64,000 bases of DNA, from the NCBI GenBank assembly GCA_024641085.1, contig JAHEDT010000010.1, positions 1-64,000 of the forward strand, given 5' to 3'. This document shows positions 1,387 through 59,379 of the stretch, piece after piece. Below the pieces are notes generated by a model. The model had not been told where the DNA came from, did no database searches, and saw only the letters and a list, made by a program, of their open reading frames with translations. Each line of letters begins with the position of its first letter. Position 1 is the first letter of the stretch. Source of the stretch: Geobacteraceae bacterium. GTDB taxonomy: Bacteria > Desulfobacterota > Desulfuromonadia > Desulfuromonadales > BM103. A program made the position numbers and the translations under genes.

Positions 1387-2565
1387 ATGGGCCATCATCT
1401 CGGCAGCAAAAGCAGCATCATCCCCCTCATCGATCGACTCAACAAGAACCCGATTGGCCTGGTCGATAATGAAAAGCTGCGCCGAATCCTGGCCATGCTG
1501 TTCAGTGAGGAGGAAGCCCTGGTCGCTTCGAAATTTCCCCTGGAGGAGGCGACCCTCGATGAACTCGCTTTGAAAACGGGTTTATCTGCCGAGATCTTGA
1601 CGCCGATTCTCGATGCCATGGCCGAGAAGGGGCTGGTCATGGATCTGCCTTATGCCGGCACGACTTATTTCATGCTGATGCCGGGGTTGATTGGCTTCTT
1701 CGAATTCACCTTCATGAAGAAGCGCGCCGATCTGCCGCTGCCCGAGCTGGCCCGCCTGATGTCCGAGTACCTGTTCGAAGACGCCACTCAAGGGCAGGCC
1801 AGGGAATTCTTCGGCAGTAAAACCAGTCTGACCCGCTCGCTGGTCTATGATGATGCCGTGCCGGTCAGCTCGGAAGTCACTCCTTATGAAAGCGCCCGCA
1901 GGATCATTACTGCCGCCAGCTACGGCGCAGTCGGCATGTGCTACTGCCGGCACAAGAAGGAACACCTTGGAGAAACCTGCGCCAAGCAAGCCCCCGTCGA
2001 GGGGACCTGTATCTCCCTGGGGACCTCGGCAAGATTCATGGTGCGTCGCGGTTTTGCCGAAGAGAAGAGCACCGATCAGCTGCTGGCGATTCTCGATCAG
2101 GCCAGGGACCTCAAGCTGACGCACATTACCGACAATGTCCGTCATAAACCTTCGTTCATTTGCAACTGCTGTTCCTGTTGCTGCGAACTGATGGCCGGAG
2201 TCCAGGCCGGTTACAGCGACGGGGTCGCCAAAACACCCTTTATGGCGGTCGTCGATACAGCAGAATGCAATGGCTGCACGCTGTGCTTTACGGCCTGTAA
2301 CGTGGGCGCGATTTCGTTGGGAACCGATCCGCCCCGTATGCATGCCATGATCAATAGGGCTCAGTGCCTGGGCTGCGGCGCGTGTGTGCCGGCCTGCCCC
2401 CTGGGAGCCGTCTCCCTGGTCGAGCGGGTCGACAGGCCGCTGCCGCCGGCGAAACGGAAGGATATGTTTGCCGCAATTTTGAAGGAGAAGGGGCGGCTGA
2501 CGCCTTATCTCGTGAGCGGAGCCAAGAAGAGGGCGCGGCGAATGCTGCAGAGGCGGAAAGGCTAG
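1387..2565 (+). CDS. cysteine-rich 4Fe-4S protein with winged-helix-like N-terminus
   Basis: 392 residues. Residues about 30-90 look like a small winged-helix fold (TLDELALKTGL). The middle holds C185/C187/C198/C208, then an unusual cluster FICNCCSCCCELM with six cysteines at 259-266. The C-terminal part is a classical two-cluster ferredoxin domain: C294-x2-C-x2-C-x3-C and C327-x2-C-x2-C-x3-C. A role in electron transfer is expected; the extra cysteines suggest a further metal or Fe-S site. AAGGAG at 1376-1381, overlapping the stop of the MBL gene, fixes the ATG. Being last in an operon with an acyl-CoA dehydrogenase suggests it carries electrons linked to acyl-CoA oxidation, which is inference. 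I do not know a named gene for it. Confidence 0.8.
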   Translation: MGHHLGSKSSIIPLIDRLNKNPIGLVDNEKLRRILAMLFSEEEALVASKFPLEEATLDELALKTGLSAEILTPILDAMAEKGLVMDLPYAGTTYFMLMPGLIGFFEFTFMKKRADLPLPELARLMSEYLFEDATQGQAREFFGSKTSLTRSLVYDDAVPVSSEVTPYESARRIITAASYGAVGMCYCRHKKEHLGETCAKQAPVEGTCISLGTSARFMVRRGFAEEKSTDQLLAILDQARDLKLTHITDNVRHKPSFICNCCSCCCELMAGVQAGYSDGVAKTPFMAVVDTAECNGCTLCFTACNVGAISLGTDPPRMHAMINRAQCLGCGACVPACPLGAVSLVERVDRPLPPAKRKDMFAAILKEKGRLTPYLVSGAKKRARRMLQRRKG

Positions 2566-2577
2566 CCCTGTGACAGT

Positions 2578-3021
2578 CTATCCCGCAGTCAGGTCCTGCT
2601 CGGGAAGCGTCCCAGGCGAGGTGTCGGGCGGGTTCTCGAGCAGGGCCTGAATCCGGCTGCGGTAGCTGGTGATGTCTCTGCGCAGCGAGGCCAGTCGCGA
2701 GATCTTGTCGTCAATTTTGCCAATATGCAGGTCGAGAATCTCGAGGACCTGGGGCGTAATCGTATCGAAATCCTGGTTGTGGGTGTCGAAGGTCTCGGCC
2801 AGGCTGAGCATCTCTTTCAGGCCGATACCGAGTTCTTTCAATTTGAGGATGAACTTGAGCCTGAGGACCTCCTCCCGGTTGTAACTGCGCGCCCCTCCAC
2901 TTTTCCTGTCGGAAGGGCCCATGAGGCCGACTTCCTCGTAGTAGCGGATGGTGCGGGTGGTGATGCCAAGCTGCTTGGCAAGCTTGCCGATCTGTATCAT
3001 CGGCTCGTGGTGGGTGGTCAT
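2578..3021 (-). CDS. MerR-family transcriptional regulator (LiuR-like)
   Basis: 147 residues with a MerR helix-turn-helix at 8-75 (IGKLAKQLGITTRTIRYYEE) followed by a coiled-coil dimer helix and a short C-terminal tail without the metal-binding cysteines of MerR, CueR or ZntR. This is the layout of regulators of branched-chain amino acid and fatty acid degradation. It lies tail-to-tail with the Fe-S operon and head-to-head with the SCP2-like gene; the 106-base gap contains the perfect palindrome TTTACGTAAA at 3032-3041, which resembles the LiuR-type motif. A GGGAAGG sequence precedes the ATG. The regulated pathway is inferred from context. Confidence 0.85.
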   Translation of the reverse strand: MTTHHEPMIQIGKLAKQLGITTRTIRYYEEVGLMGPSDRKSGGARSYNREEVLRLKFILKLKELGIGLKEMLSLAETFDTHNQDFDTITPQVLEILDLHIGKIDDKISRLASLRRDITSYRSRIQALLENPPDTSPGTLPEQDLTAG

Positions 3022-3031
3022 AGGCCTTCCC

Positions 3032-3041
3032 TTTACGTAAA
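3032..3041. promoter_or_regulatory. palindromic operator candidate for the MerR regulator
   Basis: TTTACGTAAA is a perfect 10-base palindrome between the divergent merR-type and SCP2-like genes, inside an AT-rich stretch (3031-3060) that would hold both promoters. Similar TTTACGTAAAC sequences are known targets of LiuR-type MerR proteins. Binding is inferred. Confidence 0.45.
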
Positions 3042-3127
3042 CTTACTATTCATTAACATTGATGCGTCCCCGGGTCAAGATTTCTGCAGCAGCGCCCGAA
3101 CAGGCTGCTCATGCGAAGGAGATTCTT

Positions 3128-3439
3128 ATGGTAGAGGAGATTTTTGCTCGTCTGGGGGAAAGTTTTCAGGCGGACAAGGTCGTGCGACCGAAGGTCTATT
3201 ATTTCTCTGTGGATGACGTGAAGAGGACCGTGGCCCTGGCGCCGGAAGGGGTCCGCGTGGACCATGGCAAAACCGTGGACGCTGCCGATTGCGTCTGCAA
3301 GACCAGCACGGAATTTTTTCTCAAAGTGTGGCAGGAAGGCTATCGGCCCGGTCTGCAGGATTTCCTGTCCGGTGCGATCAAGTCGAACGACCCGTTTGGT
3401 CTGCAGGAATTCCTGGCGGCCTTCGGCAAGGGGGGCTGA
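3128..3439 (+). CDS. SCP2 sterol-binding domain protein
   Basis: A 103-residue single-domain protein. The C-terminal half has the typical SCP2 pattern: DCVCKTS, then FLKVW, GLQDFLSGAIKSNDP and a final FLAAFGKGG. SCP2 domains bind lipids or acyl-CoA in a hydrophobic tunnel. The start is the ATG at 3128, chosen because GAAGGAG lies 8 bases upstream; an upstream in-frame ATG at 3059 has no ribosome-binding site and would cover the regulatory region. It is divergent from the MerR regulator and close to the acyl-CoA dehydrogenase operon, which fits a lipid or acyl-CoA carrier role. Confidence 0.8.
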   Translation: MVEEIFARLGESFQADKVVRPKVYYFSVDDVKRTVALAPEGVRVDHGKTVDAADCVCKTSTEFFLKVWQEGYRPGLQDFLSGAIKSNDPFGLQEFLAAFGKGG

Positions 3440-50896: not shown

Positions 50897-51724
50897 TTGT
50901 TACTCAATAATTATCACTTTCGCAAAGTCAAAAAGCTCACCGGCCAGGCGATCGGTGATTTCAACCTGATCGAAGACGGTGACCGGATTGCCGTTGCCGT
51001 CTCCGGTGGCAAGGACTCCTATGCCCTGCTCCACATCCTCGAACAGCTGCGCCGCCGGGCCCCCATTCACTATGAATTGATTGCGGTCAATGTGGATGCC
51101 GGTTTCCCTGGTTACCGCAAAGATATCCTGGAGAGCTATCTGAGAGGCTGCGGTTTCCGGGTGCACATGGAAGCCACCGACTGCTCGCAGATCATCGACG
51201 AGAATCTGCGCCCCGGGTCTTCCTACTGTGCTTTTTGCGCGCGCCTGCGGCGGGGCTTTCTTTATACCGTGGCTGACCGGCTCGGCTGCAACAAGATCGC
51301 CCTCGGCCACCACCTCGACGATTTCATCGAGACTCTGCTGCTCAACCAGTTCTATGTCGGTACCCTGGCGGCCATGAGTCCCAGGCTGCTGGCAGACAAC
51401 CAGCGTCACACCGTGATCCGGCCGCTGGTCTATGTGGAGGAATCCGATATAATCAAATTGGCCCGGCAGAACGCCTTCCCGGTCATTGATTGCGGTTGTC
51501 CGATGATGGGACAGGTGGACCAGAAACGCCAGCGGATGAAGCAGCTGCTCAGCGAGCTGCACAAGGAAAACCGGCATCTCAAGCGCAGTATGATCCGCGC
51601 CCTGAGCAATGTCCGCCCACGTCACCTGCTGGATCGCGAGATGATCAGACTCCTGGAGCTGGACGAGAGGAAGACTGATGAACCGATCCCGAGGGGACAG
51701 CAAGCCGACACCGAGAAGCGTTGA
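50897..51724 (+). CDS. ttcA: tRNA 2-thiocytidine synthetase
   Basis: 275 residues. The PP-loop SGGKDSYALL, the Fe-S cysteines in YCAFCARLRRG and later DCGCPMMG are those of TtcA, which thiolates C32 of certain tRNAs using a 4Fe-4S cluster. A TTG start is the only reasonable in-frame choice near the N-terminus (LLNNYHFRKVKK); AGGCAGGA lies upstream. Its 3' end overlaps the SpoIIE-type phosphatase gene by 47 bases. Confidence 0.92.
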   Translation: MLLNNYHFRKVKKLTGQAIGDFNLIEDGDRIAVAVSGGKDSYALLHILEQLRRRAPIHYELIAVNVDAGFPGYRKDILESYLRGCGFRVHMEATDCSQIIDENLRPGSSYCAFCARLRRGFLYTVADRLGCNKIALGHHLDDFIETLLLNQFYVGTLAAMSPRLLADNQRHTVIRPLVYVEESDIIKLARQNAFPVIDCGCPMMGQVDQKRQRMKQLLSELHKENRHLKRSMIRALSNVRPRHLLDREMIRLLELDERKTDEPIPRGQQADTEKR

Positions 51725-52481
51725 CCCTCTTGAGATCAAGCTTGCGGGCGAGGTCCAGAAACTGCTTCTGCCTAAGAGTTCCCCGCTCTGCAGTTGGTGC
51801 GGCATGGCGGCGAAAAACCGCATGGCCGACGTGCTCGGCGGCGACTTTTACGACTTTATTCAGCTCGATCGCGGCTGCCAGGTCCTCTTCATCGGCGACG
51901 TGACCGGGCACGGACTGCACGCTTCGGTGGTCATGTCGCTGGTCTACGGTTTCATTCATCGGGCTGCCGTCGAGGAATGCAGCCCGCAGGATGTGGTCGC
52001 CGATCTCAATATGTTCCTGCGCACCTTTGCCCGGCGTTCCAACCGTCTCGATCATTTCTTTTCGGCGACGCTCTTTTTCAGTGTCATCGACCCCATCAGC
52101 CTGATAATGCACTATGTCAATGCCGGGCACCCCGCCGCCCTGGTGCGTCGCCGGGACGAGCTGGTCCGCCTGCCGGCGACGAGTCACCCTGTGGGCTTCT
52201 TCGACCAGGCAGAGTTCCGAGCCGTTCGTTTCCAGCTCGAAGCCGGAGACCGCTTGTTGCTCTATACCGACGGGTTGATTGACAGCAGCAGCCCAAACGG
52301 CGAAATGTACGGTGCGGACCGTCTTGATGCGGCTTTTCGCAGACTGGATGGCGATCATATGGTATTTTTGGAGCGGCTATTCGCCGAAATCGGCGACTAC
52401 CTCGCCGGCCAGCCGCCATTCGACGATTGCACGGCGATCGTGATGGATCTGCATGGTGCCAGTTTGGGAAGGAACCAGTGA
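51678..52481 (+). CDS. SpoIIE/RsbU-type PP2C protein serine phosphatase
   Basis: 267 residues, essentially one PP2C-SpoIIE domain. Metal-binding aspartates lie in VLGGDFYDF and FIGDVTGHG; YTDGLIDSSSPNGEMYG and FDDCTAIVMDL complete the fold. A CSWCGM near the N-terminus is unusual. It has no REC, PAS or HAMP domain of its own, so it must be controlled by a partner. Such phosphatases act on anti-anti-sigma (STAS) proteins. GAGGAAG precedes the ATG; it overlaps ttcA and precedes a PilZ gene by 1 base. Confidence 0.9.
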   Translation: MNRSRGDSKPTPRSVDPLEIKLAGEVQKLLLPKSSPLCSWCGMAAKNRMADVLGGDFYDFIQLDRGCQVLFIGDVTGHGLHASVVMSLVYGFIHRAAVEECSPQDVVADLNMFLRTFARRSNRLDHFFSATLFFSVIDPISLIMHYVNAGHPAALVRRRDELVRLPATSHPVGFFDQAEFRAVRFQLEAGDRLLLYTDGLIDSSSPNGEMYGADRLDAAFRRLDGDHMVFLERLFAEIGDYLAGQPPFDDCTAIVMDLHGASLGRNQ

Positions 52482-52482
52482 C

Positions 52483-53184
52483 ATGTCGTTGTTAGGGGGG
52501 AAACCGCCCGATACCAAGCAGGTAGGGGTATTGACCCGCAACCCGCAGTTCAAAAAACTCCTTGCCAGCATCCTGGCTGAATGGAAGTTCGTTACCGTTG
52601 ACGACCTGGCGGCCGCGAGGGTTGCGTTCGTTGAGCGCGGGCTGGAATTGCCGCCCCAGGTTGGCGAGGTGGTCTGGCTGACATCCATGCCGCCTGCCGA
52701 AGGAAGTTTCCTGGTGCCCCCGATCTCCCTGTCCCATCTCTACCACCTGCTCGAGGCCCAGTTCTTCTCGACTCCCCGCCGCCATATCCGGGTCGCCGTG
52801 GATCTGGCCATTAGCCTGGACATTGACGGCACCTGGCTGGAAGGCCGCCTGCTCTCTCTCTCCGGTCGCGGCGGCCGGATTGCCTGTCCGCATGAAATGC
52901 CGCGCGGCAGGTCGATGAATCTCCAGGTCACACTGGATGGCAGGGTGCAGTCCCTCGTGGCGGAGGTCATCTATTCCCTGCCCGCCGGGGATGCGCAGAT
53001 GAACTCGCAACCCCAGGTCGGCGTGCTGTTCAAGCCCTGTAGCGATCAGCAGTTCGAGGTGCTCCGGCAATTTATCGAAAAGACCTGTATCGTGCGCGCC
53101 TGCACCAGGGAGGGCATTACATTGCACGACCCCTGCCTGAGCTGGCTGGATGTGCCGGCCGAGTCCTGGACTGCCAGGCGCTGA
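52483..53184 (+). CDS. PilZ-domain protein with N-terminal receiver-like region
   Basis: About 233 residues from the ATG at 52483. The N-terminal half (1-95) looks like a degenerate receiver-type domain without the phosphoacceptor set; the C-terminal half is PilZ: RRHIRVAVD (arginine motif) and LSLSGRGGRIA. It probably binds c-di-GMP. It immediately follows the SpoIIE phosphatase, suggesting joint control of a surface or motility output. Its stop is 3 bases from the convergent regulator-DnaJ gene. Confidence 0.75.
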   Translation: MSLLGGKPPDTKQVGVLTRNPQFKKLLASILAEWKFVTVDDLAAARVAFVERGLELPPQVGEVVWLTSMPPAEGSFLVPPISLSHLYHLLEAQFFSTPRRHIRVAVDLAISLDIDGTWLEGRLLSLSGRGGRIACPHEMPRGRSMNLQVTLDGRVQSLVAEVIYSLPAGDAQMNSQPQVGVLFKPCSDQQFEVLRQFIEKTCIVRACTREGITLHDPCLSWLDVPAESWTARR

Positions 53185-53187
53185 CGC

Positions 53188-55098
53188 TCAGTTGAACATT
53201 TTGCCGAACAGCCCCTTCTTCTCCTTTTTGGCGGTTGCCTTGCGCATGTTCATCAAGCGCAGCTCACGTTGGGCATCGGTGCAATTCGGGTCACACTTGA
53301 TCGCCTGTTCGAAGCGGCGCTGCGCTTCCTTATGGTTCCCTTCGTCCCTGCTGAGATAGCCGAGATACAGATGGGCCAGGCTCAGTCTGGGATTCAATTC
53401 GATGGCCCGCACCAGGTCCCTGCGACTGCTGATGGCGGTCTCCGTGGCCAGCGGGTCGGCTTTGTAGGCTGACCATGCCCGGAACATCAGATACTCCGCT
53501 TCGTTGGGGTTGAACCCCAGTGCTTCAGTGAAGGCCTGCCGGGCGTCGGCGTATCTCCTGGTCCGGAAGAACGCTTTCCCCATCTGGAAAGCGTTTTCAG
53601 CCTGGAGAATCGTTTCCAGGTTGGTTGTCGTGCCGGTCGTCTTGCCCCTGCCGCTGCGATCACTGATATAGCGCGCCCTGGCCGAGGTGTCACTCAGGGT
53701 TTCGTGAGCATCGCTGATCCGCTGGAACAGCTTGTTAACCTTGTCTTGCAGATCGTGCAGACCGTCCTGTTCGAAAAAACGATCCGGGTGATATGTCTTG
53801 GCCAGGTTGTGATAAGACCTGCGGACCTGTTCCCGGGAATCGGATTCACTGACGCCCAGCAGAGTGAAAAAATCCTGTTCCATCATCCAGGCATAATCCT
53901 TGAGAAAGTTTTGCCGCCGAGAGTGACGATCTTCCACGTTGCCGCCGACCGGTTCGCCCGGTACCGCGGTCGGCTCACCATGCCCGATCAGAATGCCTGT
54001 GCTCAGGAGCGCGGCCAGCAGTGGTTCCGCCTCTTTGCGTGAGAGCGCATGGCGTTTGAGAATTTCGCGCAAAGTCGTCTGTCCCTGGCAACGATCCAGA
54101 ATCCGTTGCTCCATGGCCGTGAGCTGGATTTCCTGGAAACGATAGAGGGGATTTTCGGCCTGTTGCAGGTAGTGATCATAGTGCGGGTCGAGAATCTTCA
54201 ATAGCTGTTCGCGGCCGGCATGTTCACGCAAGCCCTGCAGGATCAGGTTGGCGGTCGACAGGTTGATGCTGGTCACGCCCTGTTTGAATTCGCGCGCCTG
54301 TATGAACCGGTAGCTGCCGTCCGACCAGGAAAAGATTTCGAGGAGCTTTTCCCGGGCCTGGCAGTGCAGGCCGTCGTCCAGCTGCTGTGGCGTGATCAAA
54401 CCCATCTCTATCAGCGCCGTGCCGTGCCGTTGGCCTTTCCCCCGGGCGACTTCGACCGAGCTTTTTAGCTCTGCTTCGTTGAGCTGTCCGTTGCGCAGGA
54501 GTATCTGGCCAAGAAATTCGTTAACCAGGTTGGACCGGACGAAAATCGGATAACCGTCACGGATGTAGACGACCTTCTTGACCCCGTGGTTCTCCAGGTG
54601 CAGCAGCCCGGTGGCGCGCAGGCTATAGAGGTTGTGCAGGATGCGTGGCAGACCGGTCTCGTTGAGTTGCCCGCCGATGCTCAGACGCTCGGCCCCGGGC
54701 GCTGCCTCCGGCCCTCCGATCAGGGTATCGATCTTCTCGTGCAGCGTTTGCAGCGGAAAGGGCTTGAGCAGGTAGTCCGTCGCCCCGTACTCGTCGCGGG
54801 CATCGTTGATGTGCTCGGTCTGTTTGTAAAAGGCGGTCATCATGATGACCGGCAGGTGCTTGGTCTTCGGCAGGGATTTCAGCTTGCGGCAAAGTTGCAA
54901 CCCGTTGGTGCCCGGCAGGAGGATGTCGAGCAGCGCCAGGTCGAAATGGTGCTTTTCCAGTTCCTGGAGAGCCTCTTCCGCCGCTGCGAAACTCTCGACT
55001 TCATAACCGCGCAGGCGCAGCGACTCGGTGATGAAGCGGCGGATGTTCGGATCGTCATCGACAATCAGGATATGTTTGCGGCCCCCCTCAGAACCCAT
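53188..55098 (-). CDS. response regulator - DUF4388 - DnaJ - TPR fusion protein
   Basis: About 636 residues from the ATG at 55098 (AGGAG about 10 bases upstream). Domains: a receiver (8-125) with VDDDPN, phosphoacceptor Asp58 and Lys112; a PatA-type DUF4388 region (138-290; GLPRILHNLYSLRATGLL, YPIFVRS); a helical region; a J-domain (409-480) with HPD at 437-439; and TPR repeats to the C-terminus (495-615). Receiver plus J-domain in one chain suggests phosphorylation-controlled recruitment of DnaK, an inference. It overlaps nothing and follows glnE by 1 base. Confidence 0.9.
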   Translation of the reverse strand: MGSEGGRKHILIVDDDPNIRRFITESLRLRGYEVESFAAAEEALQELEKHHFDLALLDILLPGTNGLQLCRKLKSLPKTKHLPVIMMTAFYKQTEHINDARDEYGATDYLLKPFPLQTLHEKIDTLIGGPEAAPGAERLSIGGQLNETGLPRILHNLYSLRATGLLHLENHGVKKVVYIRDGYPIFVRSNLVNEFLGQILLRNGQLNEAELKSSVEVARGKGQRHGTALIEMGLITPQQLDDGLHCQAREKLLEIFSWSDGSYRFIQAREFKQGVTSINLSTANLILQGLREHAGREQLLKILDPHYDHYLQQAENPLYRFQEIQLTAMEQRILDRCQGQTTLREILKRHALSRKEAEPLLAALLSTGILIGHGEPTAVPGEPVGGNVEDRHSRRQNFLKDYAWMMEQDFFTLLGVSESDSREQVRRSYHNLAKTYHPDRFFEQDGLHDLQDKVNKLFQRISDAHETLSDTSARARYISDRSGRGKTTGTTTNLETILQAENAFQMGKAFFRTRRYADARQAFTEALGFNPNEAEYLMFRAWSAYKADPLATETAISSRRDLVRAIELNPRLSLAHLYLGYLSRDEGNHKEAQRRFEQAIKCDPNCTDAQRELRLMNMRKATAKKEKKGLFGKMFN

Positions 55099-55099
55099 G

Positions 55100-58000
55100 T
55101 CACGCATTCTCCTTGCAATGCAGCACCCGTTCAAACACCTCTCGGATCGTCTGAGTCGTCCGGGCGTAATCTTCCAGGAAGCGTTTCTCAGGCCGCAAGG
55201 GAGCGCCAGGGTAGCCGAGGTGCCGGGCCAGTTTTGCCAGGTAGGCTGTATCGGCAGACAGCTCGTTGACCGACTGGTCGTGGACCAGGCGTAGCTTGTT
55301 TTCCAGACGGCGCAGGAACTTATAGCCGGCAACCAGGGTCTCATAGTCTTTTTCCGAAATCAAGCGCTCGCTCTGCAGGAGGCGCAGGGCGTCGACCGTG
55401 TTACGGCAACGCAGGGCGTGCCGGTCACGGCCATGCCGCAGCTGCAGGTACTGGGCAATGAATTCGACGTCGACCATGCCGCCGCGGCCGGTTTTGATGT
55501 TGAGATGCTGGGCGTCTTCCTTGCCGAGTTCCTTCTCCATGCGTTGTCGGAGGCGGCAGATCTCTTCGGCAAGGTTTTCAGGCAGCGGACGCTCGTAGAC
55601 GATTTCTGCTGTCAGGGCATCAAAGCTTGCGGCCAGTTCTGCCGAGCCGGCGACGACCCTGGCCTTGATCAGCGCCTGTCGCTCCCATGGTGCGGCGGAA
55701 CTCTTGTGGTATTCACGGTAGGCGGGCAGAGAAGAGACCAGCGGCCCCTGATTGCCGGACGGCCGCAACCGGGTGTCGATTTCGTAAACATAGCCTTCCT
55801 GGGTCATCAGGGTCAGTACCGAGATGACTCTCTGGGCGAGGCGGGCAAAGTACTGTTGATTGGTTTGCGGCCTGAATCGCCCCGGATCAGTTCCTTCGGC
55901 CGGCCCGGTCTCCCCTTCTCCTTCATAAATAAAGATGAGGTCCAGGTCGGAGTGATAGTTCAATTCCATTCCACCCAGCTTGCCCATGCCGACAATAACG
56001 AATGCCGCTTTATGAGATTCGCCGACATCATCCCGGCAGAAAGGCAGACCGTAACGTTCCAGAAGTTCCTCCCGGGCGATGGCCAAGGCATGCTGCAGGC
56101 AGACATCAGCGACCAGCGAGATCTGGAGGGTGGTCTGGCCCTGCGGCGTATGACCATGGATGTCGTTGAGGGCGATGCGCAGGAATTCCTCGTTGCGGAA
56201 GCGGCGCAGGGTATTGAGCTTGTCCTCGTAATATTCCGCATGACTCATCTGATCGCCCAGCTCGGTACTGAGATCCTGCGCTTCCTTGAGATTCAGGGCG
56301 TAGCTCGTTGCCACCAGTGAGTCGAGGACTTCCGGGTGCTGAATGAAGTTACGTGAAAGAAACTGACTGGTGGCAAAGAGTGAGACCAGGACCTTGATGA
56401 TCCCGGGATTCTCTGCAAGCAGGGCGTAGTAGGTGCCCCGTGCCCGGCGGCAGGCTTCGAGAAACTTTTCCATGTTCGCCAGGGCCATCGGCGGATCCGG
56501 GCTGTACATCACCTCCTGGAAGAGCAGCGGTGCGATCCGGTCCAGCAGGCGACGCGCCCGTTCGGTCAGGTACCCCCTGGTGCCGCCCTGGCGCAGGACC
56601 TTGAGGCTCTCGTAGGCAGCCTCCGGCGGGCGGAAGCCTTTTGCCTCGAGGATGTCCAGGCAGAGGTCGGGATCGGCGTTGGCGTCGAACAGGGTGGCGA
56701 CCTCGGGGCTGACCTGGGAGGGCAACTCTTCTTCGCTGGTATAGAAAAGGTCGCGGAAAATCGCGGTGACCTTGTCCCGGTGCTGCTTGAGGACCGTCAT
56801 GAACTCGTCCGCGTGCTTAAATCCGCAGCGCCTGGCCAGGGTGGCGAGCTCTTCCGGTCGGGTCGGCAGGTTGTGTGTCTGTTGCTCGTGGACCACCTGG
56901 ATGCGATGCTCGACGGTCCGCAGGAAGCGGTAGGCGGCACTCAGGTCGTCGCGCTCCTCGACGGTAATCAGGCCTTCGGCGCAGAGCACCTGCAGGGCGG
57001 CAAGGGAGTTGCGCTGCCGCAGCCGCGGGTTCTTGCCGGCGTTGATCAGCTGCAGGGCCTGAATAAAGAATTCAACCTCACGGATGCCGCCGTGCCCAAG
57101 TTTGAGATTCAGTTCGCCCTCTTTGACCCGGGTCAGACTCCTGTCGATCTTCTGCTTCATCACCTTGATATCGTCAATCATGGCGTAGTCGAGGTGGCGG
57201 CGGTAGATGAACGGCTGCAGGCGTTGCAGAAGCTGCCCGCCGAGTGCTTTCGAGCCGGCAACCGGCCGGGCCTTGAGCATTGCCGAACGCTCCCAGCTCT
57301 GCCCCCAGCCCTCGTAATACATTTCACCGGCGGCGATCGAGTTGGCCATCTCGCCGCTGTTTCCCTCCGGCCGCAGGCGCAGGTCGACCCGGAAGACGAA
57401 GCCGTCTTCGGTGGCCTGGCCGATGGCACGGGTGATGAGTCCCGACAGCTTGATGAAATACTGATGAAGGGAAATGCGGTTGCGCGGTCCGCGAATCGGG
57501 TCGGCAATCCCGGCCGTCTGGCCACGATCGGAGCTGTAGAAATAGATCAGGTCGATGTCGGAAGAGAAATTGAGTTCACAACCACCGAACTTGCCCATGC
57601 CGAGAATGGTGAACTCGGCCTGTTCTGCCAAGCAGCCTTCTTTGGCATCGAGCAGCGGGGCCCCGTATTCGGCCTGCAACTGCAGGCTGCAGACTTCGAA
57701 CGCTCTTTGCAGGGACGCCGCCGCCAGGGAAGAGAGCTCGGCGGTGACTTCCTCGAGCGCCGCCAGGCCGCACAGGTCCCGTCCGCCGATGCGCAGCATT
57801 TCACGGGCTTTGAAAATGCGCAGACCTTTTTTCAGCAGTGCAAAATCGGCATCATCCGCGACCTGTTGACGCAGCTCTGCGCACATCTGCGTCTCGCTTT
57901 TCGTGGTGTTGATCTGGCCCCCCAGGAACAGCTCCTCGCAAAAGTCTGTTCGGCGGAAGAGGACCCCGGCGAGAAAAGGCGAAGCGCCGAGAATCGTCAA

Positions 58001-58294
58001 TAACTGACTGGCGTGGGTCCGATCGTTGAGAACTGCCGACAGCCCTGGTTTGGCGGTCGTACCGCTCAAGCGTTCGAGATTGTTGAGCGCCAGATCGGGA
58101 TCTGCCGTCGACAAAGCCTGAAGGGCGAGTGCGGCAACCAACTGCGGGTCGCAGAGGAACTGCTGTAAAAGGACAAGGTTGGCCGCGGTTTTAGCCGGCT
58201 GGGCAAAACCTGCTCTGGCGGCGGTTGCCGCCAGGGGCTCTGCATCGCCGGTCATGAGCAGCTCATGCCATGTCTGGAGCTCAGTGAAGCTCAT
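55100..58294 (-). CDS. glnE: bifunctional glutamine synthetase adenylyltransferase/deadenylase
   Basis: 1064 residues, longer than the roughly 950 of E. coli. Two nucleotidyltransferase domains are visible, with NFSSDIDLIYFY in the N-terminal half and NYHSDLDLIFIY in the C-terminal half, each followed by a GlnD PII-uridylyltransferase-like helical region. It adenylylates and deadenylylates glutamine synthetase in response to PII and glutamine. It follows mtnA by 8 bases and precedes the regulator-DnaJ gene. Confidence 0.95.
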   Translation of the reverse strand: MSFTELQTWHELLMTGDAEPLAATAARAGFAQPAKTAANLVLLQQFLCDPQLVAALALQALSTADPDLALNNLERLSGTTAKPGLSAVLNDRTHASQLLTILGASPFLAGVLFRRTDFCEELFLGGQINTTKSETQMCAELRQQVADDADFALLKKGLRIFKAREMLRIGGRDLCGLAALEEVTAELSSLAAASLQRAFEVCSLQLQAEYGAPLLDAKEGCLAEQAEFTILGMGKFGGCELNFSSDIDLIYFYSSDRGQTAGIADPIRGPRNRISLHQYFIKLSGLITRAIGQATEDGFVFRVDLRLRPEGNSGEMANSIAAGEMYYEGWGQSWERSAMLKARPVAGSKALGGQLLQRLQPFIYRRHLDYAMIDDIKVMKQKIDRSLTRVKEGELNLKLGHGGIREVEFFIQALQLINAGKNPRLRQRNSLAALQVLCAEGLITVEERDDLSAAYRFLRTVEHRIQVVHEQQTHNLPTRPEELATLARRCGFKHADEFMTVLKQHRDKVTAIFRDLFYTSEEELPSQVSPEVATLFDANADPDLCLDILEAKGFRPPEAAYESLKVLRQGGTRGYLTERARRLLDRIAPLLFQEVMYSPDPPMALANMEKFLEACRRARGTYYALLAENPGIIKVLVSLFATSQFLSRNFIQHPEVLDSLVATSYALNLKEAQDLSTELGDQMSHAEYYEDKLNTLRRFRNEEFLRIALNDIHGHTPQGQTTLQISLVADVCLQHALAIAREELLERYGLPFCRDDVGESHKAAFVIVGMGKLGGMELNYHSDLDLIFIYEGEGETGPAEGTDPGRFRPQTNQQYFARLAQRVISVLTLMTQEGYVYEIDTRLRPSGNQGPLVSSLPAYREYHKSSAAPWERQALIKARVVAGSAELAASFDALTAEIVYERPLPENLAEEICRLRQRMEKELGKEDAQHLNIKTGRGGMVDVEFIAQYLQLRHGRDRHALRCRNTVDALRLLQSERLISEKDYETLVAGYKFLRRLENKLRLVHDQSVNELSADTAYLAKLARHLGYPGAPLRPEKRFLEDYARTTQTIREVFERVLHCKENA

Positions 58295-58302
58295 CGGGTC
58301 GG

Positions 58303-59379
58303 TTATCCGTCCTTTCGGACAAAAACGGCCAGCTGCTCGGTGTAGTTGCCCCTGGCGACACCATGTTGCGTGATGATGGCGCTGACCAGTCGTGCCGGGG
58401 TGACGTCAAAGGCCGGGTTGAACACGGCGATCCCCTCCGGGGCCAATTGCTGTTCGCCGAGATGGGTCACCTCACGGCTGTCGCGCTCTTCAATCGGAAT
58501 CTCTGACCCGTCGGCGGCCTGGAGGTCGATCGTCGAGGTCGGCGCCGCCACGTAAAAGGGGATGTTGTGCTCCCTGGCGAGCACCGCGACCGTATAGGTG
58601 CCGATCTTGTTGGCGACGTCGCCGTTGGCGGCGATGCGGTCGGCACCGACGACCACTGCGTCGATGGCGCCCTTGGACATCAGGTAGCCGGCCATGTTGT
58701 CGCAGATCAGGACCGTCTGGATATGGTCCTGCTGCAGTTCCCACGCAGTCAAACGGGAGCCTTGCAGGAAGGGGCGGGTCTCGTCAGCAAACACGGTGAC
58801 CTGTTTGCCGGCCGCCACTGCCGCGCGAACCACGCCCAGAGCCGTGCCGTAGCCGCCGGTAGCCAGGGCTCCGGCATTGCAATGGGTCAGGATGCGCACC
58901 TGGTCAGGCAACAGTGCTGCGCCATGTCGACCCATGCTCATGTTGATGCGGATGTCTTCCTCGTTGATCGCCATGGCCTCGTACTCGAGGCCGATCTTCA
59001 GGTTCCCGACCGGCTGGTCGGCATTGGCCCGCACCAGGCTTTTCATGCGCTCCAGAGCCCAGCAGAGGTTGACTGCCGTCGGCCGGGTTGCCGCGAGCAC
59101 CTCGCACACCTGCTCAAACCCGGTGACAAAATCGGCATATTGCTCAGCCTCGCTGGCCAGGGCGCCGAAATAAGCACCGTAGGCCGCGGTGACTCCGATC
59201 GCCGGTGCTCCGCGCACCACCATGCTGCGGATCGCTTCGGCGACCTCGCGGTAATCGGTGTACTCCAGCCAGACCTCTTCTGTGGGCAGCCGTCGCTGAT
59301 CGAGCAGGCGCAGAACGCCGTCGCTGTATTTGATCGGGCGGATGCCCGCCGCATTGGGGAAAAAATCGCAATTACTCAT
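58303..59379 (-). CDS. mtnA: S-methyl-5-thioribose-1-phosphate isomerase
   Basis: 358 residues. Catalytic Cys in LTHCNAGALATGGYGTALG and Asp in VGADRIAANGDVANKIG are as in MtnA; RGAPAIGVTAAYG is the sugar-phosphate loop. It isomerises MTR-1-P to MTRu-1-P in methionine salvage. Elsewhere in the family similar proteins are eIF2B-like, but these motifs support MtnA. AAGGG precedes the ATG. It lies 130 bases after gatB, with a small repeat in between. Confidence 0.93.
   Translation of the reverse strand: MSNCDFFPNAAGIRPIKYSDGVLRLLDQRRLPTEEVWLEYTDYREVAEAIRSMVVRGAPAIGVTAAYGAYFGALASEAEQYADFVTGFEQVCEVLAATRPTAVNLCWALERMKSLVRANADQPVGNLKIGLEYEAMAINEEDIRINMSMGRHGAALLPDQVRILTHCNAGALATGGYGTALGVVRAAVAAGKQVTVFADETRPFLQGSRLTAWELQQDHIQTVLICDNMAGYLMSKGAIDAVVVGADRIAANGDVANKIGTYTVAVLAREHNIPFYVAAPTSTIDLQAADGSEIPIEERDSREVTHLGEQQLAPEGIAVFNPAFDVTPARLVSAIITQHGVARGNYTEQLAVFVRKDG

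Follow-up and report, generated by a model that had tools for sequence, protein, structure and literature searches.

A receiver, a PATAN-type domain, a J-domain and TPRs in one protein encoded after glnE in Geobacteraceae: a candidate response regulator with a chaperone-recruiting output

Results

The gene after glnE and the domains that it encodes

The window, a 64,000-nucleotide stretch of DNA from a Geobacteraceae bacterium, contains a gene of 636 codons plus stop, here called the REC-J gene, which lies directly downstream of glnE (Table 1). The preferred start is the ATG at 55098, preceded by an AAGGAG at a distance of about 10 nt; a single base separates this ATG from the glnE stop at 55100. 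The gene of the IF-2B family on the other side of glnE is one that we take to be mtnA.

Table 1. Coordinates of the REC-J gene, its encoded parts and its neighbours in the window
Feature	Residues	Position	Strand	Basis or remark
REC-DUF4388(PATAN)-winged-helix-like-J-TPR protein		53188..55098	-	ORF and start analysis, Pfam, 24-row alignment A1
Receiver (REC)	10-123	54730..55071	-	Pfam Response_reg 9.7e-28
Asp58 codon	58	54925-54927	-	inside REC
Lys112 codon	112	54763-54765	-	inside REC
DUF4388 (PATAN-type)	143-293	54220..54672	-	PF14332 1.3e-20
MshEN_N-like four-helix bundle	195-247	54358..54516	-	within DUF4388; 24+5+24; profile and fold
Winged-helix-like segment	294-375	53974..54219	-	predicted helices and strands, high confidence
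J-domain	409-477	53668..53874	-	PF00226 5.4e-13
HPD codons	437-439	53782-53790	-	inside J-domain
TPR region	503-613	53260..53592	-	several TPR Pfam models, best 1.4e-09
C-terminal helical tail	614-636	53191..53259	-	starts in conserved arginine-rich stretch
glnE		55100..58294	-	directly upstream; Pfam and NCBIfam
mtnA-type gene, IF-2B family		58303..59379	-	Pfam IF-2B
PilZ-domain protein		52453..53184	+	convergent; Pfam PilZ 2.6e-10
SpoIIE-type phosphatase		51678..52481	+	convergent; Pfam SpoIIE 1.7e-41

A preliminary description of this DNA had read the product as a receiver, a DUF4388, a J-domain and TPRs in one protein, with the phosphoacceptor Asp58, Lys112 and an intact HPD motif. Pfam recovered all four domain types in that order, and all of the named residues were present in the numbering of the 636-residue protein (the Pfam query had 639 residues, and 3 was subtracted from its positions). 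REC carried the acidic pair, phosphoacceptor Asp, Thr/Ser and Lys at residues 14, 15, 58, 88 and 112, and a fold search with the predicted model matched the REC fold with a best Z of 21.2 over 121 residues (rmsd 1.1). DUF4388, which we take to be the PATAN domain, scored 74.1 bits against a PF14332 cut-off of 25, matched in 24 of 24 orthologues, and was recovered again by a whole-genome scan. The DnaJ model scored 49.3 bits (cut-off 27.8) and TPR_2 37.8 bits (cut-off 27), with further TPR models also above their cut-offs and the TPR region modelled as all-helical with pLDDT of about 90 or more. The winged-helix-like segment gave weak sequence matches to NPRL3-type HTH, and R611, E612, R614, L615 and R619 were invariant in the 24 rows of A1. 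None of the 16 Pfam families on the protein was a C-terminal substrate-binding or zinc-finger domain of a type A or B DnaJ, which leaves it among the remaining J-proteins, presumably those named class C.

Because one or more models of every one of the four domain types exceed their Pfam cut-offs, and because orthologues with as little as 38% identity repeat the same domain order, the REC-DUF4388-J-TPR architecture, as read from sequence, is not a product of chance. A structure prediction for the full protein from the 24 orthologues had a mean pLDDT of 82.4 but a pTM of 0.53, so that the single domains can be taken as reliable and their placement relative to each other as uncertain.

Conservation of the receiver and J-domain signatures

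A protein search of 58 relatives, counting the window's own genome among them, found matches at E<=1e-30 in 30; the close relatives with named records were Desulfuromonadales, Geobacteraceae and Deltaproteobacteria genomes. From 29 extracted rows we assembled alignment A1, which holds 24 full-length rows with 38-80% identity to the window protein and omits L015 for its aberrant C-terminus, L017 and L019 for their similarity to rows that were kept, L037 for a stop near its doubtful start and L038 for its lack of a REC. Asp58, Lys112 and HPD were present in every row of A1. Among all of the extracted rows, HPD was found in 29 of 29, and both Asp and Lys in 28 of the 28 that have a REC.

The preliminary description had proposed a search for the spread of this architecture, and had named loss of HPD or of the phosphoacceptor in orthologues as evidence against its reading. 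With a profile of the part that follows REC, full-length matches were found in 53 of 194 genomes of the class, all within one taxonomic order, and related forms occurred in the phylum. All 53 proteins were read: HPD was present in 53, Asp58 in 51 (the exceptions being one Asn and one Glu) and Lys112 in 52 (one Arg), figures that leave the reading standing and indicate that the J-domain signature is held more strictly than the phosphoacceptor. One of the 53, the L102 copy, is split by a stop codon. The two full-length orthologues whose phosphoacceptor is replaced by Glu or Asn (L194 and L094) keep an intact HPD, and the Glu-bearing one might mimic phosphorylation.

Other positions of the J-domain were less typical. 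In helix II, the genome's own DnaJ has two basic positions, of which the first was non-basic in 24 of 24 aligned orthologues and the second in 22 of 24, being basic in the other 2. In E. coli DnaJ, this pair has a part in the binding of DnaK, and since it is missing here, the J-domain of the REC-J family may be weak or specialised. Taken with the retained signatures, the sequence data partly support the coupling of a receiver to DnaK that the preliminary description proposed, and we regard that coupling as a reasonable reading.

Relatives that lack HPD or REC

A second family in the class matched the profile only from about the J-domain on (positions about 230-496), in 47 genomes, from which we fetched 12 members. 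These proteins resemble the window's family in domain order, in their similar length and C-terminal tail, and in their REC residues (REC was present, with Asp in 11/12 and Lys in 12/12), but HPD was present in 0/12. Their middle is a divergent PATAN-like part in which DUF4388 was undetected in place in the three proteins scanned, and their insert is only weakly MshEN-like (30.5% probability with hhalign). Both families occur together in 10 of the 194 class genomes. The retention of Asp in 11 of the 12 HPD-less members suggests that in these relatives REC can act without DnaK.

Across the phylum, 65 of 297 genomes gave a match (E<=1e-20). We fetched 14 stretches from outside the class and read 15 DUF4388-J-TPR proteins in them, of which 8 had a REC and 7 did not, and 13 had HPD. 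Four of the REC-bearing proteins follow glnE; in two stretches, REC-less proteins follow mtnA. One genome (G215) encodes tandem REC-less DUF4388-J-TPR proteins after mtnA (L142, ORFs from 4229 and 5896), with HPD in one and missing in the other. In a tree of 51 proteins, for which the HPD columns were included, the window's family and its HPD-less counterpart formed separate clades with full support, and their sisterhood had weak support. HPD status changed at least three times on this tree and REC presence at least four times, which argues, at the level of sequence, for a stable core of DUF4388, J and TPR to which REC and HPD are variable additions among the relatives.

These changes bear on two alternatives to a receiver that controls DnaK recruitment. 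In the first, the J fold would serve mainly as a binding module within a REC-PATAN regulator, and DnaK recruitment would be minor or absent. The existence of an HPD-less sister family that is otherwise built in the same way, the at least three changes of HPD status and the missing helix-II basic pair in the window's own family are all as this alternative predicts, but a pure scaffold would have no need of the HPD that is kept in 53 of 53 members as distant as 38% identity, and we consider it rather unlikely. The second alternative retains the co-chaperone and gives up the switch: REC would serve for dimerisation only, or would be a relic, and DnaK would be recruited whether or not the protein is phosphorylated. 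One orthologue without REC, the REC-less PATAN-J-TPR proteins of other classes and the replaced Asp in 2 of 53 orthologues fit such a constitutive co-chaperone, which we nonetheless judge unlikely, as the acidic pair, Asp, Thr/Ser and Lys are otherwise retained. The orthologue concerned (L075, genome G041, ~1618-3156 on the reverse strand) lies directly after glnE, and its chain begins at DUF4388.

A conserved site and its repeated loss

Where the flanking sequence was long enough for neighbours to be counted (21 loci from 21 genomes; tblastn matches above 60 bits), the REC-J gene was always immediately downstream of glnE, in the same orientation, and mtnA preceded glnE. On its convergent side, the same loci had genes for PilZ in 16 cases, SpoIIE in 10 and ttcA in 20. 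For comparison, 20 genomes that have no full-length REC-J gene were searched for GlnE, and the 1.5 kb that follow glnE were read. In all 20, mtnA was near glnE, and at 10 of the 20 sites one or more of the PilZ, SpoIIE and ttcA genes followed glnE with no full-length REC-J gene between. The conserved locus, together with these glnE sites without the gene, indicates on sequence grounds that the REC-J gene is old, vertically inherited, repeatedly lost and dispensable, and that its neighbours are independent of it. At one such site (L147, genome G009), remnants of residues 5-40 and 590-636 with 69-72% identity lie between glnE and PilZ, and these are, as judged from their sequence and position, the scar of gene loss at a conserved site.

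The preliminary description had also pointed to the PilZ and SpoIIE neighbours as signalling proteins; their genes are convergent to the REC-J gene, not co-directional with it, and such genes persist where it is missing. A single signalling operon that includes these neighbours was rejected, because PilZ, SpoIIE and ttcA lie on the opposite strand and run towards the REC-J gene, and because at least one of them is still near glnE at 10 of the 20 sites without it. On present evidence, the PilZ neighbour stands outside the mechanism proposed below. Pfam and NCBIfam scans found no kinase among the neighbouring proteins that they covered, and no type IV pilus gene was recognised beside the REC-J gene.

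The position after glnE also suggests a role in nitrogen control, in which the protein would act on GlnE or on glutamine synthetase. The operon-like arrangement in 21 of 21 loci, and its recurrence for four distant proteins of other classes, are what such a role predicts. However, all 20 of the genomes examined for sites without the REC-J gene have glnE, mtnA adjoins the gene in two distant stretches that gave no glnE match, and vertical inheritance alone can preserve a gene order of this kind, so that we consider this role improbable.

An MshEN-like bundle inside DUF4388

We folded the PATAN part and the following segment separately, because receiver domains filled the fold searches with the whole model. 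This segment was predicted with a pLDDT of 91.9 and a pTM of 0.87, and a part of it that the preliminary description had not noticed, the four-helix bundle of residues 195-247, provides the best clue to the target of the protein. In a Foldseek comparison, the bundle matched MshE (5htl) with a probability of 1.00, an rmsd of 0.7 and 32% identity over 53 columns (E 0.28). The top row of a VIA-align search had a Z of 8.4 (rmsd 2.7, 61 residues aligned), and the next seven rows were likewise PilF or PilB N-domains, at Z 7.1-7.3; as unrelated fumarases followed at Z 6.9, the fold score by itself is middling.

An hmmsearch of PDB sequences returned 17 matches, the best 14 of which were pilus or MSHA motor ATPases (PilF 1.6e-14, MshE 6.9e-09). 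With hhalign, the bundle aligned to a profile of 16 PilB-type N-termini from the relatives' genomes at 3.7e-13 over 53 gap-free columns, as against 0.44 for the rest of DUF4388 and 0.0074 at best for 20 column-shuffled copies, and the corresponding insert gave 9.9e-13 for the 15 proteins read from other classes. No Pfam MshEN model matched any of the 24 members at E up to 1, so that the homology shows at the profile and fold level only. Passages of Wang et al. (PMC5013675) describe MshEN as two 24-residue motifs joined by 5 residues, and the 24+5+24 layout of the bundle is the same. By profile and modelled fold, we conclude that the bundle is MshEN by descent. It shares this four-helix bundle with MshE, PilB and PilF and differs from theirs in that the N bundle stands alone, inserted in DUF4388, and in that several base- and ribose-contacting side chains are replaced.

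The latter difference concerns the ligand residues and the RLG...Q motif, which we took for MshE from passages of the same paper (PMC5013675). In the first unit, the position of MshE Arg9 is Phe or Cys (Arg in 0/24) and that of Gln32 is Ala, Ser, Val or Met (Gln in 0/24). In the second unit, the position of Leu39 is His, Gln or Ile (Leu in 0/24), that of Arg38 is Arg in 8/24, and that of Gln61 is Gln in 24/24. We did not find the RLG...Q ligand residues in both units of the bundle in the 24 rows, and as most of the ligand-contacting residues are replaced, their sequences suggest that the bundle is probably not a c-di-GMP receptor. A dual-input protein, in which the MshEN-like bundle binds this second messenger, is very improbable, with the exact 24+5+24 layout and the invariance of Leu196, Gly197, Gly226, Leu240, Leu244 and Gln247 in the 24 rows in its favour and the residue replacements just listed against it.

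For the beta part of PATAN and the winged-helix-like segment, fold searches gave no confident match, the best rows being weak (GATOR1 chains, Foldseek E 0.16). The genome encodes two DUF4388 proteins, and the sole one besides the REC-J protein has 411 residues (L064:1131-2366, contig C31). Its insert looks MshEN-like by eye, and a single-sequence search of the PDB gave no MshEN match for it.

DnaK, PilB-type ATPases and flagella in the relatives

The window's genome encodes one full-length DnaK and has seven J-domain matches. PilB-type ATPases were found in 58 of 58 relatives, with five matches at E<=1e-100 in the window's own genome. Because PilB is universal among these relatives, whether or not the REC-J gene is present, presence and absence cannot test a link to PilB, and we rejected co-occurrence with type IV pili as support for one. 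FlhA had no match in the window's genome at the cut-off used and was found in 20 of 58 relatives, including 0 of the 22 genomes of the window's family; some genomes with the REC-J gene have FlhA and others do not, and we drew no inference from this.

Discussion

Most two-component systems act through DNA binding, through second-messenger enzymes or through the docking of proteins. We found no published account of a protein that joins a receiver and a J-domain in a literature search that covered papers open without subscription and thus not the original PATAN paper. The matching passages in the same literature state no relation between PATAN and MshEN; passages place MshEN domains outside pilus motors as well. 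As far as its sequence allows it to be judged, the architecture is one of known parts newly combined, a signalling regulator and a J-protein, found through one order with related forms in the phylum.

Two cyanobacterial systems resemble these halves, as judged from their published descriptions. Passages of a review (PMC12288463) report that PATAN-REC regulators of Synechocystis bind the motor PilB1. Cyanobacterial PATAN-REC response regulators (PixG, PixE and LsiR) are described as having a REC and a PATAN-type domain, as the REC-J protein has, and differ from it in that here a J-domain and TPRs are fused to them. In Nostoc, according to parts of another paper (PMC9239167), DnaK1 binds PilB and Hfq, and DnaK1 with its partner DnaJ3 is needed for the motility polysaccharide; the same text reports that the DnaK1-PilB pair of Synechocystis was negative in a two-hybrid assay. 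DnaJ3 is a TPR-containing DnaJ in passages of the review (PMC12288463), and the DnaK1-DnaJ3-GrpE system at the type IV pilus motor, with its TPR-bearing J-protein and DnaK, is like the present case in this respect; it differs in that the passages mention no receiver or PATAN in DnaJ3, and that here the parts lie in one polypeptide, in a genome with one full-length DnaK.

We tentatively favour, as possible on the sequence data and on analogy with these systems, that the REC-J protein is a response regulator with an Hsp70-recruitment output, a phospho-gated adaptor that would bring DnaK to a PilB-type motor or its partner. By the logic of gene fusion, the presence of REC, PATAN, J and TPR in one chain suggests that they serve the same pathway. 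The domains, their conservation, the history of the family and the MshEN homology are observations, next to which we infer every step of the following mechanism. A histidine kinase would phosphorylate Asp58, as the conserved acidic pair, Asp, Thr and Lys suggest, and the phosphorylated REC would alter receiver packing and so expose or orient the effector parts. DUF4388/PATAN, with its MshEN_N-like bundle, may dock on a PilB-type motor ATPase or its partner, a step to which both the MshEN homology and the published binding of PATAN regulators to PilB1 point. The J-domain would then load the single full-length DnaK while the TPRs hold a client, and the signal would thereby lead to the remodelling of a motor for pili or secretion, or of a protein coupled to that motor, such as a polysaccharide exporter.

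The conserved signature residues at both ends (HPD in 53/53, Asp in 51/53, Lys in 52/53), the one full-length DnaK of the genome and the MshEN homology of the insert speak for this phospho-gated adaptor. Against it are the dispensability of the REC-J gene, the fact that no type IV pilus gene was recognised beside it, the negative two-hybrid result for DnaK1 and PilB of Synechocystis, the occurrence of MshEN domains outside pilus motors, the missing helix-II basic pair, the Asn and Glu in place of Asp in two orthologues, the uncertain placement of the domains, and the HPD-less and REC-less relatives, from which it follows that neither end is indispensable in the wider kind. If the J-domain works, fusion to a receiver would put chaperone recruitment under direct phosphorylation control. 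The two-component signal would end in the remodelling of a motor by Hsp70, through one fused polypeptide instead of the separate proteins of cyanobacteria. The families with and without HPD are a natural experiment on what the J-domain contributes.

The most useful new lead is the MshEN homology, which offers a physical reason for the published binding of PATAN to PilB. A further proposal, which we hold to be doubtful, is that the helical insertion of PATAN-type regulators was captured from the very motor family that they regulate, as a copy of its control bundle, the MshEN_N of PilB or MshE. The REC-J protein might thereby engage, or compete with, the regulatory domain of the motor, and when phosphorylated might bring DnaK there.

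The window's genome contains a second pairing of a receiver and a J-domain, as separate proteins. On contig C83, a J-domain protein of 202 residues with HPD is encoded just downstream of, and on the same strand as, a receiver protein of 234 residues whose C-terminus looks PilZ-like by eye (L063:4478-5086 and L063:5212-5916).
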